Shown one piece after another: positions 1,288 to 11,193 of a stretch of 64,000 bases of DNA (positions within the stretch are counted from its first letter, which is position 1; each line of letters opens with the position of its first letter). Below the pieces are notes generated by a model. It was not told the DNA's origin. It made no database searches and saw nothing but the letters and a program-made list of their open reading frames with translations. The DNA comes from Companilactobacillus bobalius (GTDB taxonomy: Bacteria > Bacillota > Bacilli > Lactobacillales > Lactobacillaceae). Location of the stretch: assembly GCF_009764355.1 (NCBI RefSeq), contig NZ_LNUA01000059.1, positions 28,818 through 92,817 on the forward strand, written 5' to 3'. Made by a program: the position numbers and the translations under genes.

Positions 1288-3120
1288 CTAATTATTTTTA
1301 TTTAAAGACCATAATCTAGTCAAATTTGCACTATTACTATTTGGGGATAATTTATCCATAAGTTTATCTACTTTTACCACAACTGGTAATTCAAAATTTA
1401 TGCCTGTAAAAACTGCTGAACCTGCAGACAATGTAGGTATGGACTGTCTAGAAATCATATCTAAAGAATTTAGAGAATTATCCAACATTTCTAAATCATT
1501 TTGATTCACAAGTCTATGAATAATATAATTGTGCATTTGTGACACAATCGTTTGAGATATATCTGCCGGACGTTGACTAGATATAGTTAAATAAAATCCA
1601 AATTTACGTCCTTCTTTTACTATTTCTTCAAAAACATCCAACCTATAATCACGCCATTCCTTTCTTTCTCTATTGGAAGACGTTGATAAAATATTATGTG
1701 CCTCATCAATAATTAAATGTGTTGTACTTTTTAATTCCGTATTTCCATCATTATTTTCTTTTTGATTTTTATAGGATTGTCTTGCAACAATCAAAGGTAC
1801 AATTAATTTAATTTCTTTATTAACATTTCTAAGAGATATTATTTTAATATTATTTTCATTGACATATTCATCGCTTACCTTCACAACTTTGCAAAACATA
1901 TTTTCTTTTGATTCTACCCTACTAAGAAAATAGCTTATATACTCATACTGGCTATTTCCATATTTTAATTTAAATATCATTTCAAGATACAATAGAATCA
2001 TTAATAAATTTAGAGGTTCTACTTCACGCTTTAGATTCTGTGCAAATTTTGATTCAAATTTTGCTATGAGATCATCCCTATTTAATTTATTCACATAACT
2101 TCCATTACGCATGTAATATTGGGAATATTTATTATTCCAATTACTATCCAATAATTCCTCTAATTCTGATCCCTTCTCGAATTCAATATGTAATATTGCC
2201 AAAATTTTATTTAATAATGGTTGTGTTCTTGCATCCATATGAGTACTAAAATATGTATTTTTTAATCCTTCAGTTAAATAATGTATAAGCTTTTTATTAT
2301 TGAAATGTTTTCCTGGCTTAAAGAAATTCAAGGTTGCCCTTAAAAAAGGTTCTTGTGTTTGAGACGTTGCTGAAAACAAAACCGATAAAAATTCAGCATC
2401 CCAAAATTCTGTATTGGATAATATTAGTTTATCCTGACCATTTATCTTTTTAGTGTTCAAATTTAGTACAGATTTATTCTGCGAAAAAATCTCATTTGAA
2501 GTATATTCCCCATTAAAATCTATGAAAATAAACTTTGACTTTTTTAAAGATATCTCATTATTTTCATCCTTTTTAAATAATTCCGTATATATTTTAGTCA
2601 AAGTATTTGATTTACCACTACCAGTATTACCGAATATCGCAAAATGTGTATTAAATAGATGACTCCAGTCCAATGAAAACGGAACTTTATCAGGTACAGT
2701 GTAACCTATATTCAATTGGTAATCTGAATTAACATTATTCCCAATAATCATCTTTATCTCATCGTCTGAAAGCAAAACAATTTCAGAAAATATTTGTGGA
2801 AATCCGTATATTCCTTGTATAAATTTCTTGTTTCTGAAATTACCTATTATATTAATATTCACTTCTCTGATATATCTATTCAAACTAAATTCTTGGTCAT
2901 TTGGATCTTTGCTTTTATCATCGGCAAATTCTCTAGTAACTTTTCCTACTAATTTATAAGGTCCATTTACAATACCCACATATTGACCTATTCCAACACC
3001 TCTATAAACTTGATTATTTTTGAAATATGTCATCATATTTGTATTCTGGTACATTCGTGCTCTAACATAGTTTCCTTTAATTTCAATAACACTACCAACC
3101 GTTATATCATCATTAATCAT
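1288..3120 (-). CDS. HerA-like ATPase of a SIR2-HerA defence pair
   Basis: 610-residue P-loop ATPase of the HerA/FtsK class (DUF87-like). Walker A reads GNTGSGKSN at about residues 164-172. Walker B reads HLIIDEAHN at about 470, followed by a conserved SSQRP segment, all as in HerA proteins. The N-terminal ~150 residues are a small beta-rich domain, as in the HAS-barrel of HerA. The ATG at 3120 has GTGGGGAA just upstream and overlaps the SIR2 gene's end by a few bases, implying translational coupling; a GTG at 3132 lacks a ribosome site. In the known family, HerA hexamers assemble with SIR2 effectors and control NAD+ depletion on phage infection. Role here is inferred from motifs and pairing. 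Confidence 0.9.
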   Translation of the reverse strand: MINDDITVGSVIEIKGNYVRARMYQNTNMMTYFKNNQVYRGVGIGQYVGIVNGPYKLVGKVTREFADDKSKDPNDQEFSLNRYIREVNINIIGNFRNKKFIQGIYGFPQIFSEIVLLSDDEIKMIIGNNVNSDYQLNIGYTVPDKVPFSLDWSHLFNTHFAIFGNTGSGKSNTLTKIYTELFKKDENNEISLKKSKFIFIDFNGEYTSNEIFSQNKSVLNLNTKKINGQDKLILSNTEFWDAEFLSVLFSATSQTQEPFLRATLNFFKPGKHFNNKKLIHYLTEGLKNTYFSTHMDARTQPLLNKILAILHIEFEKGSELEELLDSNWNNKYSQYYMRNGSYVNKLNRDDLIAKFESKFAQNLKREVEPLNLLMILLYLEMIFKLKYGNSQYEYISYFLSRVESKENMFCKVVKVSDEYVNENNIKIISLRNVNKEIKLIVPLIVARQSYKNQKENNDGNTELKSTTHLIIDEAHNILSTSSNRERKEWRDYRLDVFEEIVKEGRKFGFYLTISSQRPADISQTIVSQMHNYIIHRLVNQNDLEMLDNSLNSLDMISRQSIPTLSAGSAVFTGINFELPVVVKVDKLMDKLSPNSNSANLTRLWSLNKNN

Positions 3121-4249
3121 CGTATTCCCCACTTAAAAGACTATTGAATACATCAAAATCACCATTTTTAAAATTCTTTTTTTCATCAAATTCCGTAATA
3201 AACTCAACATTTTTAAAATTTGACATCTTTTCCTTTATAAATTCTATATCCTCTTCCGAATATGGAATTACAAAGATTTTTAATTCTGGATTATATTGTG
3301 CACGATGAATAATATCCAATATATGTTCATCCTTAAAAGAAAAACCAAAGACTATAAGAACAGTTTCTTTTTTTTCCAATTCGTTGGAAAATGCCCTGAG
3401 CATTTGATAATAATAGTTTTCAAAAACCGTTTCTGCAAATTTTCTTTTTGTTGGATTAACTATTAACAATTCTTTGTATGAATCACCAAATTTCTCTAAT
3501 TTATTTTTTTCATCTCCTGATAAGGAAATATTATTCAGATATTGGACAGGATCTTTACTAGTGTTCAATTCTCTTTCTAATCTTTCAACATTCATAGACT
3601 GAAATCTTAGTTCACTCACATAATTACCAATATTCATTATTTCATTCTTTTTTTCATTAGAAAAATCTGAAACAATAGATTTTTTAATTTTTTTCCACGT
3701 TAACGATCCATGTATTTTATAAAGATTTATAGAAGGTATCTCACGTCTAAAATAATCTGATGCACCACTATGTATATAATTGAAATAATAATTTTTATAG
3801 TTCACTACCCTTGTGAAGAATCCAGAGGATCCATCATTAAACTTTATTAGTGGATTTATTAGTGCCAATTCATCAAATGCATTCTCAAAAAAAGTATCAT
3901 AATTGGTGGTAAATATATTTACCCTTTTGGGTTGCTCAAATCCACCCATATTTGCGATATTCACTACATTTTCAATAAAATTTTTATAATTCTCAATAGT
4001 ATTTTTTAAATTATTGTCTTCATTTTCAATATCTTTTATAACCAACCCTTCTTTTACAGATTTATCAAAAAATAGAGCCATGAGTATCAATTTTTCATAT
4101 TTATCTTCACATTCAGTATATACATCTTCTAAACTTTTTCCCGAGTTTTCCATTTCCAAAGTATTCAACCATGTAGAACTTGCTCCAGCCCCAATTAAAA
4201 AATTTATTTTTTTCCCAACAATCTCTTCTAAAAACTTTTTGTTTTCCAT
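3113..4249 (-). CDS. SIR2-family NADase effector of a SIR2-HerA defence pair
   Basis: 378 residues. Sirtuin-fold motifs are visible: FLIGAGAS at 17-24 (NAD-binding glycine loop), FTTNYDTFFE near 113-122 (the Asn/Asp pair of defence SIR2 domains), IHGS at 179-182 with the likely catalytic His180, and GFSFKDEHI in the C-terminal third. No zinc-finger cysteines are seen, as usual for NAD-degrading SIR2 defence effectors rather than deacetylases. The ATG at 4249 follows AAAGGAATTTTT. It is the first gene of a two-gene unit with the HerA-like ATPase. Known relatives deplete NAD+ during infection (abortive infection); that activity is inferred here. The unit is markedly more A+T-rich than its neighbours, suggesting transfer. 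Confidence 0.9.
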   Translation of the reverse strand: MENKKFLEEIVGKKINFLIGAGASSTWLNTLEMENSGKSLEDVYTECEDKYEKLILMALFFDKSVKEGLVIKDIENEDNNLKNTIENYKNFIENVVNIANMGGFEQPKRVNIFTTNYDTFFENAFDELALINPLIKFNDGSSGFFTRVVNYKNYYFNYIHSGASDYFRREIPSINLYKIHGSLTWKKIKKSIVSDFSNEKKNEIMNIGNYVSELRFQSMNVERLERELNTSKDPVQYLNNISLSGDEKNKLEKFGDSYKELLIVNPTKRKFAETVFENYYYQMLRAFSNELEKKETVLIVFGFSFKDEHILDIIHRAQYNPELKIFVIPYSEEDIEFIKEKMSNFKNVEFITEFDEKKNFKNGDFDVFNSLLSGEYDD

Positions 4250-4370: not shown

Positions 4371-6152
4371 TTAATCTGTAACCATTTGATTATGATAAAG
4401 TCCGGCATAGAAACCATCCCCTGCCAACAATTTATCATGATTACCTTGTTCAATAATCGCACCATCTTTTAGAACAACAATCTTATCGGCGTTCAAAATT
4501 GTCTTCAAACGGTGGGCAATAACGAAACTAGTCCGGCCTTGAATAACACGATCCATTGCCGCTTGAATGTTGGCTTCCGTAACAGTATCAACATTTGAAG
4601 TGGCTTCATCCAAAATCAATAATTGTGGGTTAGTCAAAATTGTTCTAGCAATCGACATCAATTGTTTCTGACCAGCTGAGAAAATACTCTGCTCATCAGA
4701 TACTTCTGTTTCATAACCCTTAGGCAAACTAGCAATAAACTCATGAATATTAGCTTGTTTAGCAGCATCAATAACACGTTCCATACTTGCATCAGGATCA
4801 CCGAATCGAATATTGTCCGCAATCGTTCCTGAGAATAATTGTGGATCTTGTAAGACGATACCAACATTCTTTCGCAGTTCTTTCAAAGAAAACTCACGAA
4901 TATCAGTCCCATCAATCGTAATTGCTCCACTGTCCACATCATAGAAACGATTCAAAAGGTTCATAACAGTTGTCTTACCGGAACCTGTTGGTCCAACTAA
5001 AGCCACCATTTCACCCTTATGTACTGAAATTGAAACACCATGTAAAATTTCTTTACCTGGTAAATAACTAAAGTGAACATCATCAATCTGCAATTCATTT
5101 TTAATTCCAACCAATGATTTACCGTCAGCGGGTTGAACTTCATCTGGTTGACTTCTAACTTCATCAACACGACGAGCACCTGTAATAGCCAATTGAATCA
5201 TCCCGTACAAACTAGTCAACGACATGATTGGTTGGTAATACTGTTGCGCATAGTTAACGAAGACGACGACTAAGGCCAAAGCTGCTCCAGTTGATAAAGT
5301 TCCATTCAAAGCAAACCATGAACCGAAGAAAATAACGATGGCCGTGTTCAACAAGGACATCCCTTGCATCAATGGATTCAAAACACCTGACCAAATTTGA
5401 CCAGACATAGCTGATTGACGAACTTTTTGATTATGTTTTCTAAATCCGGCAATTGAATCTTTTTGTAAACCATTAGTGATAATAACCTTTTGAGCGGTAA
5501 CTTGTTCATTAATATAACCGTTCATCTTACCAATATCATCTTGTTGATGGTTAACCGCCACGCCAGCTTTTTTCATAACAACTGCCGCAATAATTAAAGC
5601 TACCGGAGTAGAACCCATCGTTACCCAGGCCATTGTCACATTCTGATCAAACATGACAATCAGGATACCGATAAATTGGGCGACGGATAAGAAAATCTCG
5701 ATCAAAGCCTGATTCATCGCATTAAAAATGTTATCCAAATCAGAAGTGTAACGTGCCAAGATATCCCCATCACTGTGAGAATCGAAATATTGTACCTGCA
5801 TTCGTTGCATCTTACGGAATAACCCAACACGCATCGTACCAGTTGAATAAGCCGTAATTCTAGCTAAAATCATACTGGCAATAAATAAAGTACTGGCATC
5901 ACCTAGATATAATCCTAAGTAAACCCACAAAGTTTTATGGAAAGAACCTAGATTGGCATCACCACGAGCAGCAGTATTCGTCCACTGTTGCAAGTAAGTT
6001 GTTAACTCAGAAACTGCACGTCCCAGATAAGTTGGAGCAATAACAATACATGCGGTTGAAATACCGATCAGTATTGCCGTCATGAGAAAGCCAAACCAGT
6101 ATTTCTTCAAATAGTGCCAATAGTATTTCCCTGCGTTTTTTAAATCCCTCAT
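4371..6152 (-). CDS. ABC multidrug exporter half-transporter, LmrD-like (active ATP site)
   Basis: 593 residues: an N-terminal exporter-type membrane domain with about six helices, then a nucleotide-binding domain. Visible motifs are Walker A GPTGSGKTT, signature FSAGQKQ, Walker B LLILDEATSNVD with a catalytic Glu, and H-loop VIAHR. The Walker B Glu and the H-loop His are intact, but the signature is SAGQ rather than SGGQ. Its start overlaps the stop of the upstream ABC gene by four bases (ATGA), so the two are coupled. Together they match the heterodimeric LmrC/LmrD or BmrC/BmrD plan, in which one ATP site is degenerate. Family members export drugs, dyes or bile-type compounds at the membrane; the substrate cannot be read from sequence. 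Confidence 0.93.
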   Translation of the reverse strand: MRDLKNAGKYYWHYLKKYWFGFLMTAILIGISTACIVIAPTYLGRAVSELTTYLQQWTNTAARGDANLGSFHKTLWVYLGLYLGDASTLFIASMILARITAYSTGTMRVGLFRKMQRMQVQYFDSHSDGDILARYTSDLDNIFNAMNQALIEIFLSVAQFIGILIVMFDQNVTMAWVTMGSTPVALIIAAVVMKKAGVAVNHQQDDIGKMNGYINEQVTAQKVIITNGLQKDSIAGFRKHNQKVRQSAMSGQIWSGVLNPLMQGMSLLNTAIVIFFGSWFALNGTLSTGAALALVVVFVNYAQQYYQPIMSLTSLYGMIQLAITGARRVDEVRSQPDEVQPADGKSLVGIKNELQIDDVHFSYLPGKEILHGVSISVHKGEMVALVGPTGSGKTTVMNLLNRFYDVDSGAITIDGTDIREFSLKELRKNVGIVLQDPQLFSGTIADNIRFGDPDASMERVIDAAKQANIHEFIASLPKGYETEVSDEQSIFSAGQKQLMSIARTILTNPQLLILDEATSNVDTVTEANIQAAMDRVIQGRTSFVIAHRLKTILNADKIVVLKDGAIIEQGNHDKLLAGDGFYAGLYHNQMVTD

Positions 6153-7870
6153 GACTTTGCCCCCTCTCTAGCCTTTTGTGTACGATAAATTTCTTGATAT
6201 ACCGAATTATGAGCTACTAATTCTTTGTGATTACCATTTCCGACAATGTGACCACTATCCATAACTAAAATTCGATCTGCTCGTAAAATTGAAGAGATCT
6301 TTTCGGCAATCACTACTGTAGTAGTCTTAGTTAAATCTCTATCCAAAGCTTCCTGAACCAGTTTTTCAGATTTTGCATCCAAAGCTGATGTCGCATCATC
6401 CAAAATTAAAATCTTTGGTTGTGCAATAACACCACGAGTAATTGACAATCTTTGTTTTTGACCACCGGAGAAGTTAGAAGAACGTTCTTCAACTGGTGCA
6501 TCATAAGTTAAAGGCAAACGCTCAATAAATTCAGAAGCTTGTGCAACGTTAGCTGCCCACTGCATTTGATTTGGTGTGGCATCTTCTTTAACTTGGCGCA
6601 AATTGGCTGAAATAGTTCCCGAGAACAATGTCGAACGCTGTAAAACGTAAGCAACTGTTTCTCGTAAAGACTTTTCAGAAAGCTGACGAACATCAACTCC
6701 ACCAACTTTGATCGTACCAGAGTCGGGATCATACAAACGGGCAATTAATTGAGCTAATGTCGTCTTACCAGATCCAGTCGCACCAACGATACCAATCATT
6801 TCACCGGCTTTAACTTTAAAACTAATATCCTTCAATGTTGGTGCATCATCACCAGGATAAGTAAAGGTTACATGATTAAATTCAATATCCCCTTCGACCG
6901 GATCAGAATTACCCTCAACGTATGACATACTAGGGTCAGTTCCCATAACTTCACCGATACGTCCTAATGAAATATTAGCTCTAGAAGCCGCAATCATTAA
7001 GAAGCCACCATTGATAACTGCAAATAGAATTTGCATTAAATAAGAAATAAAACTAGTAATCGCAGCTAAGTAAGTAGGATGAACTGTTAAATTTTGTCCA
7101 ACTAGATAAACAGCTAAAACCACGGCAATATTGGCCGTTAAGAAGAAAGCTGGCATCAAAATGGCAAAAGTATAACCAATTTTGGCTGTAACTTTCGTCA
7201 AACTATCTGAAGCAGTCGAAAACTTCTTAATTTCATGCGGCTCTTGCACAAATGACTTAACAACACGAATACCCATCAAATTCTCACGAGCAACCGTATT
7301 AACATCTTCAATATCTTGTTGTGTTTCCGCAAAATAACTACTCATCTTTTTGTATGTGTACAAACTAACCGCTATGACAATAATCATCATACCAATCAAG
7401 ACCCACCACTGTTGTGGCATTGTTATCATGGCTAAAATAAAGGCTCCAATAAATAGCAATGGAATCCGACTCACTTGTTGAAAAGTGGCCATAACAATTT
7501 GTTGAACCTGGTTAATATCATTTGTCATTCTAACAACTAAGTTCGACGCCGAGAACTTTTCTACATCTGCATAGGCAAATGACTGCACCTTATCATACAG
7601 ATCCGAACGCAAATCAGTCGCTACACCTAAGGCGACGTGAGCCGAATAAATCGTATTGATGACCCCGGCAATAATTCCGACTATCGCCAAAATAATCAAA
7701 ACTATTCCTTGTTGAAAAATAGTATTTTTGTCACCTTTCAAAATTGCATTCATAATTACTTGCAACAATCGTGGTTGCCAAAGCGTCGCAAATACTAAAG
7801 CTATAACTGAGATAAGCGCAATATAAACATCTTTTCGATAGCGCTTGATATATGGCATTAATACTTTCAT
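6149..7870 (-). CDS. ABC multidrug exporter half-transporter, LmrC-like (degenerate ATP site)
   Basis: 573 residues: six-helix exporter membrane domain and nucleotide-binding domain. Walker A is GATGSGKTT and the signature is FSGGQKQ. Walker B ends ILILDDATSALD, with Asp in place of the catalytic Glu, and the H-loop reads VVIAEK, with Glu replacing the switch His. Those two substitutions are the hallmark of the degenerate subunit in heterodimeric exporters such as LmrC. GGGGGG precedes the ATG at 7870. It is the first gene of the exporter operon and follows a leader with a short ORF overlapping a terminator, so expression is probably set by attenuation. Confidence 0.93.
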   Translation of the reverse strand: MKVLMPYIKRYRKDVYIALISVIALVFATLWQPRLLQVIMNAILKGDKNTIFQQGIVLIILAIVGIIAGVINTIYSAHVALGVATDLRSDLYDKVQSFAYADVEKFSASNLVVRMTNDINQVQQIVMATFQQVSRIPLLFIGAFILAMITMPQQWWVLIGMMIIVIAVSLYTYKKMSSYFAETQQDIEDVNTVARENLMGIRVVKSFVQEPHEIKKFSTASDSLTKVTAKIGYTFAILMPAFFLTANIAVVLAVYLVGQNLTVHPTYLAAITSFISYLMQILFAVINGGFLMIAASRANISLGRIGEVMGTDPSMSYVEGNSDPVEGDIEFNHVTFTYPGDDAPTLKDISFKVKAGEMIGIVGATGSGKTTLAQLIARLYDPDSGTIKVGGVDVRQLSEKSLRETVAYVLQRSTLFSGTISANLRQVKEDATPNQMQWAANVAQASEFIERLPLTYDAPVEERSSNFSGGQKQRLSITRGVIAQPKILILDDATSALDAKSEKLVQEALDRDLTKTTTVVIAEKISSILRADRILVMDSGHIVGNGNHKELVAHNSVYQEIYRTQKAREGAKS

Positions 7871-7903
7871 TAATTTCCCCCCTTTTGTTTAGTTCCAATC
7901 CAG

Positions 7904-7950
7904 TAAAAAAAAACAAGACACTTAGTAGCACTGGCTACCTAGCATCTTGT
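7904..7950 (-). terminator. Leader terminator (attenuator) of the ABC exporter operon
   Basis: On the minus strand two 17-nt arms pair almost completely (one A-A mismatch and a few G-U pairs) around a CAGT loop at 7913-7950, followed by nine T. It lies 43 bases before the exporter start, inside its 5' leader, so it should stop transcription unless the hairpin is prevented from forming. Confidence 0.85.
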
Positions 7951-7960
7951 CCAGCCTCAA
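7922..7960 (-). CDS. 12-codon leader peptide MRLDKMLGSQCY of the ABC exporter operon
   Basis: A TTG start at 7960 is preceded at 7 nt by a perfect GGAGGG (7973-7968). Translation gives 12 residues ending TAC TAA at 7922, with the stop in the 3' arm of the terminator hairpin. The ORF therefore covers the entire 5' arm. A ribosome stalled on it would melt the terminator and let transcription proceed. This is the logic of ribosome-mediated attenuation known for the B. subtilis bmrB-bmrCD leader. Expression of the peptide is inferred from its ribosome site and position. Confidence 0.6.
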   Translation of the reverse strand: MRLDKMLGSQCY

Positions 7961-8009
7961 AAACAGACCCTCCGATGATTCTTCAGTTGAATTAAAACGT
8001 TAGTAGCTA

Positions 8010-8038
8010 ATATTACAATGAATAAATATTAAATTCAA
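8010..8038 (-). promoter_or_regulatory. Predicted sigma-A promoter of the ABC exporter operon
   Basis: On the minus strand TTGAAT (8038-8033) and TAATAT (8015-8010) are separated by 17 nt. Transcription would start near 8003, giving a leader of about 130 nt that contains the short ORF and the terminator. Confidence 0.55.
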
Positions 8039-8062
8039 GCATCTTCCTTAATAATATAAAAA

Positions 8063-8106
8063 ATGCCTCACAATTACCAAAATTTTAATCAGTAATTGTA
8101 AGGCAT
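8063..8106 (-). terminator. Terminator of the LysR gene
   Basis: A long stem (ATGCCTnACAATTAC with its complement) is followed on the minus strand by a T-run, just beyond the LysR stop. Confidence 0.75.
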
Positions 8107-8127
8107 CATTAACAATATTTTTTCTAT

Positions 8128-8982
8128 CTAAAACATTTGAATAAATTCAGAAATCAAATTAGATTTTTCTTTATAATTTCTAGTCAACAAATGGGCGTGA
8201 ACGTGATTCACAATATCAGTTTTAATGACTCGTAACTTCTGATTCTTTATTTCACTTTCTACCATTGTTAATGGTAAATAACTGAATCCTAATCCATTAA
8301 CCACTGCCGCTTTGATAGCCGCAATACTATCTAAACTAGTTGTTCTAAATTGACGTTGATGTTGCTGCCAAACAGCAGTTTCAAATTGATTGCGATAACT
8401 ACACTCTGGTTCATTAATGATAAATTGGGCGTTTTGGTCATCAAGTATTTTTTGAAATGAAACTTTACTATCAGTTGGCACTACTAAAACCATTTCTTGT
8501 TCGCCCAAATCATGATCGATCAGTTTCTTACTAGGACGACTAGGCCACATCATAAAAGCTACATCCACTTCACCACGCAACAATGTTTCTTCATTATGTA
8601 AACAAGTCGCATTCTGCAATTCAATTTGAACCTGAGGATATTTCTGTTTAAATTGCCTCAACATCGGTGCCACCATAGAGATAGTTAATGATTCTGGTGC
8701 TGCAATTTTTAAAATTCCTGTCTGTTCTGCTTCTTGATTCCAAGTCTTGATTTCAGAAAAATTCTCTAACGTCTTCGTCACCAATGGTAGAAGTTCTATT
8801 CCAGTTTGCGTGATTATGACCTGTCGCTTTTGGTATTCGAATAATTTAGTTCCTAATTCTGCTTCTAAATTTTTGATCTGCATTGAAACATTCGACTGTG
8901 TATAACCTAATAATTCAGCTGCCTTTGAAAAATTGCGTGTCTCCGAGATCATTTTAAAAGTGGTTAACTCACGTACATCCAT
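8128..8982 (-). CDS. LysR-family transcriptional regulator
   Basis: 284 residues. The N-terminal winged helix-turn-helix shows FSKAAELLGYTQSNVSMQIK at about 18-37. The remainder matches the periplasmic-binding-like effector domain (LKIAAPESLTISMVAPML). AGGA sits 7 nt before the ATG. It is transcribed away from the acetyltransferase gene, and an 11-bp inverted repeat lies in the shared intergenic region, so it probably controls that gene and itself. The inducer is unknown. Confidence 0.9.
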   Translation of the reverse strand: MDVRELTTFKMISETRNFSKAAELLGYTQSNVSMQIKNLEAELGTKLFEYQKRQVIITQTGIELLPLVTKTLENFSEIKTWNQEAEQTGILKIAAPESLTISMVAPMLRQFKQKYPQVQIELQNATCLHNEETLLRGEVDVAFMMWPSRPSKKLIDHDLGEQEMVLVVPTDSKVSFQKILDDQNAQFIINEPECSYRNQFETAVWQQHQRQFRTTSLDSIAAIKAAVVNGLGFSYLPLTMVESEIKNQKLRVIKTDIVNHVHAHLLTRNYKEKSNLISEFIQMF

Positions 8983-9843: not shown

Positions 9844-9859
9844 AAGTGTCACAAGATAA

Positions 9860-10146
9860 AAAACGACAAGAAAGAAGAGTAAGTTTTTCCACACTGACAG
9901 TGAATTGGGAATGGTGAGAACCCAACTAGTAAATGGAATCGCTGAATAACACTTTCTTATGTTTCTGGCTGAAATGACTACGTCAAAGTAAGTACAGACG
10001 TTAACCGGTACGTTACCATCGGTGGAGCATGTTTGTGCTCTTATTGAGGTGGTCTATTTTTATATAGGCAACTTGGGTGGTACCGCGAAAAGTCTTTCGT
10101 CCCAGTTATTATTAATTTAATAACTAGGATGAAAGACTTTTTTATT
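9860..10146 (+). ncRNA. T-box leader riboswitch, asparagine-specific
   Basis: The conserved T-box sequence GGGTGGTACCGCG is at 10075-10087. It is followed by a terminator hairpin built from GTCTTTCnTCC and its complement and ending in a T-run (10089-10146). The base of stem I is AAGAAAG (9868-9874) paired with CTTTCTT (9952-9958). Just inside it sits AAC (9948-9950) followed by A, the expected specifier position, which reads asparagine. Uncharged tRNA-Asn should pair with AAC and with the T-box bulge and stabilise the antiterminator, turning on asnA. The match of specifier to downstream enzyme supports the reading. Confidence 0.93.
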
Positions 10147-10185
10147 TTGCATAAAAGGAATCAACAATCAATTGGAGGACTCAAA

Positions 10186-11193
10186 ATGGACTTAATTATA
10201 CCTAAGGATTACGATCCAAAACTATCTGTTAAAGAAACTCAAAAAGCTATTCAATATATTCGTGAAACTTTTCAAGATGAATTCGGTAAAGAATTAAATT
10301 TATCCCGTTTATCCGCACCAATGATGGTCGAAAAAGGTACTGGTTTGAACGATAACCTTAATGGTGTCGAATCACCTGTTTCCTTTACGATGAAAGGGAT
10401 TCCTGGTGAAACTATCGAAATCGTTCACTCACTAGCAAAATGGAAGCGTCTAGCTTTGAAACGTTACCACTTCGACATGCATGAGGGTATTTACACTAAC
10501 ATGAATGCCATCAGAAAAGATGAAGACCTCGATAACATCCATTCAATTTACGTTGACCAATGGGATTGGGAAAAAATCATCGCTAAAGATGAACGCACAA
10601 CTGAAACTTTGGAAAATACTGTTAAACAAATTTTCAAAGTTATCAAACATATGGAACACGAAGTTTGGTATAAGTTCCCTAAAGCAGTCCATCATCTACC
10701 TGACGAAATTCACTTCGTTACAACTCAAGAACTAGAAGACCGCTGGCCTGACAAGACACCTAAGGAACGTGAAGATGCCATCTGTAAAGAATACGGTGCC
10801 GTCTTCTTAATGCAAATCGGTGGACCTATGAAGAGTGGTAAACGTCATGACGGCCGTGCCCCTGATTATGATGACTGGAAATTAAACGGTGATATCTTGT
10901 TCTGGTATGAGCCTTTGCAACACGCCCTTGAAATTTCAAGTATGGGTATCCGTGTTTCTGAAGAATCAATGAAGGAACAATTAAAGATGGCTCACGCTGA
11001 AGATCGTGCCAAATTACCATTCCATCAAGCCTTATTGAAAGGTGAATTACCATACACTATCGGTGGTGGTATCGGACAATCACGTCTTTGCATGTTACTA
11101 CTTGGTAAAGCTCACGTCGGTGAAGTTCAAGCCGCAGTTTGGCCTGAAGACTTACGTAAGAAATGTGATGAGAACGGCATTCACTTGCTATAA
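10186..11193 (+). CDS. asnA: Aspartate-ammonia ligase (asparagine synthetase A)
   Basis: 335 residues from the ATG at 10186, preceded by GGAGG at 10174-10178. An earlier in-frame ATG at 10129 lies inside the T-box terminator and is not a real start. It converts aspartate and ammonia to asparagine with ATP hydrolysed to AMP. It is a class-II-synthetase-like enzyme of nearly the same length as E. coli AsnA (330). Family segments seen include [17 protein letters not shown] near the N-terminus, [12 protein letters not shown], and [14 protein letters not shown] at the C-terminus (motif-3-like ATP site). It stands alone under the Asn T-box. Confidence 0.97.

Follow-up and report, generated by a model that had tools for sequence, protein, structure and literature searches.

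In Companilactobacillus bobalius (contig NZ_LNUA01000059.1, positions 28,818 to 92,817, a stretch of 64 kb referred to below as the window), two genes of a heterodimeric multidrug ABC exporter are preceded by a leader in which a small conserved RNA fold overlaps an intrinsic terminator, and since the same fold stands before several unrelated kinds of exporter, it has the appearance of an RNA sensor that has not been described so far. All features under study lie on the minus strand. The first gene (6149–7870, with its ATG at 7870) encodes an EfrC-like ABC half-exporter of 573 amino acids, and the second (4371–6152), which overlaps the first by 4 nucleotides (nt), encodes an EfrD-like half-exporter of 593 amino acids. 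Among solved structures, the two subunits are closest to chains A and B of 7ocy (689 and 736 bits, respectively), which we take to be EfrCD of Enterococcus faecalis; BmrC/YheI scored 258 bits with the first subunit. Judged from these similarities, the two-gene ABC exporter is EfrCD-like. The first-pass annotation of this DNA had named an LmrCD-type exporter, of which the heterodimeric ABC exporter stood and the type was refined to that of the nearest solved relative. In passages of the EfrCD paper, the enterococcal exporters are taken to be homologous to LmrCD and PatAB (PMC4997860). The first exporter protein is 98% identical to its counterpart in C. kimchii.

Relatives of the locus were found via the exporter protein and not via the RNA motif. 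A first set contained nine loci from Companilactobacillus or Lactobacillus plus another two that are unrelated, and a second set 15 of 36 genomes of the genus (E ≤ 1e-150), with species partly overlapping those of the first set; the window and the 15 genomes together provided 16 distinct Companilactobacillus efrC leaders. The predicted sigma-70 promoter of the window, TTGAAT-17-TAATAT, is found at 8010–8038 (−35 TTGAAT at 8038–8033, spacer of 17 nt, −10 TAATAT at 8015–8010), and a pattern TTGnnn-16/18-TAnnnT occurs at the same position in 15 of the 16 leaders. By our estimate transcription would start at about 8003–8001, resulting in a leader of about 130 nt. The intrinsic terminator (7905–7952) has its 5' arm at 7952–7934 and its 3' arm at 7929–7911, the stem (approximately 7952–7911) being composed of 12 and 6 pairs flanking one mismatch, and nine T follow at 7913–7905. 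The complete leader folds better than its dinucleotide shuffles (z −2.91; 3 of 200 were equal or better). A generic terminator scan of the region reported three other sites, the leader hairpin not being among them. The premature terminator that had been proposed between the promoter and the exporter gene was nevertheless present, as a terminator-like hairpin with the 3' arm shortened in some cases, in all 16 Companilactobacillus leaders read.

The leader also contains GGAGGG (7973–7968), followed by an open reading frame (ORF) of 12 codons (7922–7960) that begins with TTG at 7960, ends with TAA at 7924–7922 within the 3' arm of the terminator and would encode the peptide MRLDKMLGSQCY. This layout is as the first-pass annotation had described it. 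An 8-nt repeat of the stem had also been put forward as an alternative pairing partner; GCTACTAA, the reverse complement of TTAGTAGC, does recur at 8007–8000, but it is present in only 5 of the 16 related leaders and is cut by the predicted transcription start. An antiterminator at the 5' end, pairing CUAACGUUUU with AAGAUGCUAG, was seen in folds of partial transcripts and was set aside; GCTACTAA itself has that same limited distribution.

A core AUYGGAGG...RGAYAAGRUR is common to 15 of the 16 Companilactobacillus leaders, and the element is located upstream of efrC in 14 of the 15 efrC-bearing Companilactobacillus genomes. In the window the element corresponds to an aptamer-like fold at 7943–7977, assigned from the minimum free energy (MFE) structure, covariation in both helices and near-invariant letters of the internal loop. 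Its 5' half consists of CAUC (7977–7974), GGAG (7973–7970), the 5' strand of a helix P2 (7969–7965) and the loop (7964–7958), and its 3' half of the 3' strand of P2 (7957–7953), GGACAA (7952–7947) and GAUG (7946–7943). The consensus, YAUC-GGAG-[variable hairpin P2]-RGAYAA-GAUR, thus comprises a 4-bp helix, a purine-rich internal loop and a covarying hairpin, the conserved part of the element being as small as 29–46 nt. The 3' half of this small fold (RGAYAAGAUR) is at the same time the 5' arm of the terminator, which in L083, L094, L215 and L218 (L numbers denote individual loci) additionally takes a strand of P2. Since the strand is shared, the small fold and the terminator are mutually exclusive. 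In the window the small fold has an energy of −6.9 kcal/mol and the terminator state −25.6 kcal/mol, and because the terminator is far more stable, a signal would have to act during transcription.

Copies of the element were sought with covariance models and with a sequence pattern. Model R1, built from 12 efrC leaders, matched 15 of the 36 genomes of the genus: 14 efrC leaders (11 seeds and three non-seeds), a copy before an MFS gene in C. kimchiensis, and L044, which by eye is a plain terminator. The C. kimchiensis copy has an intact core (L043, 1503–1570), and the core has been lost at efrC (L005, 2840–3000) in apparently the same genome (G019). Among 397 Lactobacillaceae genomes R1 matched 18, and three of the eight matches outside the genus were true by inspection (L045, L048 and L051), the remaining ones (L046, L047, L049, L050 and L052) being by eye terminators without the core. 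Model R2 matched 13 of 395 Lactobacillales genomes at 14 places: three in Companilactobacillus, three that were kept (L083–L085) and eight that were dropped (L086–L093); L086, L087 and L093 of the latter were inspected, and rescoring with R3 recovered just L089 and L092 (19.6 and 19.2 bits). The pattern matched 14 of 395 Lactobacillaceae genomes, 13 of them judged true, as compared with 1 of 395 for a reversed-pattern control. Of these 14, five were in Companilactobacillus, three had been found before, five were new (L215, L216, L217, L218 and L221) and one, L214, was within a coding gene; a pattern match from the Lactobacillales, L096, was also within a coding gene.

The genes downstream of the copies belong to several unrelated families. 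Pfam assigned them to MFS_1 (L043, L215, L216 and L217), MatE (L048 and L218), ABC (L045), GNAT (L094 and L095, from two similar genomes) and B3_4 (L221), and above the NCBIfam cut-offs L043 and L216 were DHA2 efflux proteins and L048 and L218 MATE proteins. L045 is an efrC orthologue, its product being 76% identical to the EfrC of the window over 478 residues. At L051 the downstream gene is degraded and by eye MATE-like, and at L083 there is no gene nearby. The B3/4-domain gene (PF03483) at L221 (745–1449, minus strand) is an odd partner for the element among the drug exporters. In the MFS copies L043, L216 and L217 an extra hairpin was seen by eye immediately upstream of the core, and none was noticed in the efrC leaders. 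Searches of plasmids with L217, L218 and the window element gave no match.

Outside the Lactobacillales, 109 pattern matches were obtained in viral contigs. One of them, L119, is positioned directly upstream of a MatE gene and has the correct fold; the other 108 were dropped after all had been rescored with R3 and ten inspected, these being mostly coding or without a fitting hairpin. A similarity search with L119 yielded L228, a sequence that comes from the human gut and is on record as a phage, in which the element again directly precedes a MatE gene, the product of which scores below the NCBIfam MATE cut-offs. It also led to L227 (2858–2917), where a Bacteroides plasmid record carries what is left of the element, with no exporter gene beside it and with a tRNA (Rfam, 64.3 bits) approximately 140 nt away. 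From the similarity to this Bacteroides record, L119 and L228 are presumed to derive from Bacteroidota. Three weak matches of a class-wide R3 search (L224–L226) were rejected; L226 is similarly laid out but in other letters, and no gene is nearby.

For the structural comparison, 27 copies, corresponding to 26 distinct rows, were aligned by R2. In the aptamer fold 95.3% of the cells are paired and four of nine pairs are changed on both sides (four were reached in 2 of 500 shuffles), and in the terminator fold 94.3% of the cells are paired and nine of 17 pairs are changed on both sides, these counts being biased by the fitting of the R2 alignment to the P2 and terminator pairs. The covariation score of the aptamer fold was matched by none of 500 shuffles, and when the partners were slid by 1–3 columns only 23–41% remained paired. 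The closing helix lies outside the model; its closing pair is C-G in 22 of the 26 distinct rows, U-A in two (L006 and L083), U-G in one (L094/L095) and unpaired in one (L048). As for the letters, AUCGGA is found in 26 of the 27 copies, RGAYAA in all 27 (with G first in 23) and GAU in 26, with GGU in the remaining one; the loop sequences of the hairpin vary freely. With the raw MAFFT alignment as input, RNAalifold produced a poor model, which was discarded.

No match on the element was found with Rfam 15 in the window at gathering scores, in window positions 7800–8130 at E ≤ 5, or in 11 and a further 3 other loci at E ≤ 1. Neither the open-access literature searched by title and beginning of abstract nor the passages of PMC11109978 and PMC8632094 containing the gene and genus terms held a description of it.

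Exclusive folds with covariation in each, near-invariant letters and a position before unrelated exporter families can thus be read from the sequences, and these display the hallmarks of a riboswitch, namely conserved unpaired letters with covarying helices, a strand shared between sensor and platform, and several non-homologous downstream genes. The leader is likely, with good though not full confidence, to be a non-coding, riboswitch-like transcription attenuator of multidrug export. That it represents an orphan riboswitch class, in which an internal-loop aptamer of the size given above senses a toxic compound and switches on ABC, MFS and MATE exporters as well as modifying enzymes in at least two phyla, is a more specific proposal for which the balance tips only slightly to the positive side. 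From the near-invariant unpaired letters, the use before unrelated exporters and the shared-strand layout, we infer direct binding of a small molecule, and the ON direction is of the same standing. The small aptamer-like domain would be transcribed first and could fold as the polymerase leaves the promoter. In the absence of a signal, the far more stable terminator would win and keep the exporter switched off. The signal would most likely be a small toxic compound or its marker and would hold the small fold until the polymerase has passed the T-run, so that the exporter is made. To our knowledge, few RNA sensors that directly switch on multidrug exporters have been described. The element is tiny, precedes exporters of three superfamilies and matched none of the 4227 Rfam families searched. 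The purpose of the EfrCD, MATE and EmrB-type pumps is a standing question, and if a compound is bound, the ligand would reveal the role of these exporters in bacteria of food and of the gut.

In favour of this interpretation, the small fold is the unconstrained MFE structure of the segment in the window and in 24 of 30 copies overall (the 27 aligned ones with L119, L227 and L228), as compared with 16 of 3000 mononucleotide shuffles. Several observations weigh against it. For the pattern-found L215–L218 and L221 the shuffles overstate the contrast, since most of their AUC/GAU letters were fixed by the search, and in six of the 30 copies a structure other than the small fold is the MFE. The closing helix has just 4 bp, with the terminator placing a constraint of its own on the GAUR side. 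In C. kimchiensis the efrC leader (L005) lacks the core and retains the promoter, the long-range helix P1 described below and the terminator, which means that the terminator can exist alone, and the locus of a distant EfrC homologue (L007) is without the element (no match with R3). A close variant of the pattern matched 6 of 395 Lactobacillales genomes as against 4 of 395 for its reversed control, so that the context decided there. The evidence from outside the Lactobacillales amounts to two sequences and one exporter-less remnant (L227); L228 has a stable hairpin but no clear T-run, and in the class-wide R3 search (220 genomes, E ≤ 0.1) four genomes matched, only the seed genome strongly. Furthermore, some contact with the ribosome is possible, given that GGAGG makes a perfect Shine-Dalgarno sequence.

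The covariation and the placement would fit equally well if the signal were a protein, i.e. if a regulatory protein bound the internal loop and P2 and thereby blocked the terminator. The conserved part is small and hairpin-like, and its 29–46 nt are a size used by RNA-binding antiterminators. A partner protein would, however, have to be shared by unrelated genes in probably two phyla, and no obvious shared regulator gene was present in the short flanks viewed, a point that was not systematically tested. Such protein-mediated antitermination is a possible but unlikely alternative.

With regard to control logic and gene classes, the nearest described systems are the guanidine-IV and Gd4v riboswitches, and the element might be a distant member of that family. 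According to passages of the published descriptions (PMC7736828, PMC9788692 and PMC11611296), these are also terminator-based switches with a short distant pairing that stand before genes of the MATE and GNAT classes; guanidine-IV acts as an ON switch, the direction proposed here, and the Gd4v phyla, Firmicutes and Bacteroidetes, overlap with those of the element (PMC9788692). The architectures differ, as far as these text descriptions go: in guanidine-IV and Gd4v a pseudoknot or kissing loop connects two hairpins, the loop letters are conserved and the terminator is within the binding structure, whereas the element is an internal-loop fold that excludes the terminator and has variable loops. 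In guanidine-IV the adjacent G71 and U72 make the kissing loop (PMC11611296), while the corresponding segment of the element reads GAU in all aligned copies except the one with GGU. ABC and DHA2 MFS exporters are common partners of the element, unlike those of guanidine-IV and Gd4v. Moreover, R2 found no copy at E ≤ 1 in 30 SMR-gene loci, drawn from the 71 matching genomes among 118, and in 20 of these 30 loci Rfam gave no match at gathering scores. Nor did the element itself match Rfam 15, in which the presence of guanidine-IV is unconfirmed. Membership of this family is accordingly regarded as doubtful, and distinctly so.

With regard to the gene controlled, the nearest systems are bmrB-bmrCD and patAB. 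The bmrB-bmrCD attenuator of Bacillus subtilis, as described in parts of PMC4191407, likewise has a terminator in its leader and controls a heterodimeric multidrug ABC exporter, and on this precedent the first-pass annotation had proposed that a ribosome stalled on the 12-codon leader peptide opens the terminator and makes the exporter inducible by ribosome-targeting antibiotics. The perfect GGAGGG 7 nt ahead of TTG in the window is in favour of such a mechanism, as is the peptide start MRLDKMLGS, which is identical in four closely related leaders. An ATG, GTG or TTG start codon 4–13 nt past GGAGG is found in 19 of the 27 element copies; this is not above the 16.3 ± 2.3 obtained after shuffling of the stretch that separates the two conserved blocks (fraction equal to or above the observed count, 0.17), and eight copies have no start codon. 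The remaining copies use all three frames relative to the core and give unrelated peptides with lengths from MAG to 32 residues. The window's frame ends after nine codons in C. musae, which is among the nearest relatives, GGAGG is missing from the corresponding place in the C. kimchiensis efrC leader, and the conserved letters include ones that translation would not need (the upstream AUC and RGAYAA). Some of the peptides contain RxR and in this resemble motifs at which ribosomes stall with macrolides, a likeness that was dropped, since the frames differ among copies. Because the hairpin is conserved in the relatives while the start, frame and peptide of the ORF are not, the leader-peptide mechanism is left without support and is highly improbable. 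Unlike bmrB-bmrCD, the leader has no conserved ORF and the exporter is EfrCD-like; the 12-codon ORF is probably not a gene but incidental, and GGAGG is better explained as part of the conserved internal loop. The earlier interpretation as a whole was thus partly supported, and the lesson may be that a perfect Shine-Dalgarno sequence with a short ORF across a terminator can conceal an aptamer.

A terminator that is constitutively leaky and does no more than reduce exporter expression, without sensing, for which C. kimchiensis with its terminator lacking the core could be quoted, deserves very little credence in view of the near-invariant letters outside the helices, the covarying P2 and the re-use before unrelated exporters. 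The patAB genes of Streptococcus pneumoniae are comparable by description in that a Rho-independent terminator limits the expression of a heterodimeric ABC exporter, the abstract mentioning no sensing domain (PMC4319486). Two further systems are comparable in part. An ABC-leader reported in 2010 by Naville and Gautheret from L. gasseri and L. johnsonii is also, as far as its description goes, a predicted attenuator, of no known class, before a multidrug ABC operon and could be related to the element. The yjdF riboswitch, according to passages of PMC4793209, is an RNA that binds diverse nitrogen-containing compounds, but it occurs almost exclusively with yjdF, and the element had no Rfam match here.

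In the Companilactobacillus efrC leaders, duplex energies indicate an additional long-range helix, P1, formed in the window by 7998–7988 with 7902–7892. The mean duplex energy was −11.1 kcal/mol with the leaders' own partners, −8.6 kcal/mol with swapped and −4.6 kcal/mol with shuffled ones, and 14 of the 16 leaders surpassed their own swapped mean. The 3' strand of P1 is located downstream of the terminator, so that the helix would be made only upon read-through; as a guess, it may protect the messenger.

The exporter pair is immediately followed (1288–4249, minus strand) by genes for a SIR2-domain protein and a HerA-type ATPase, which match the PADLOC models SIR2 (9.2e-58) and HerA (5.5e-165) and are likely a SIR2-HerA anti-phage pair. 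On the plus strand, a T-box leader (RF00230, 98.6 bits) at 9857–10107 is positioned upstream of an ORF of 354 amino acids (10129–11193).
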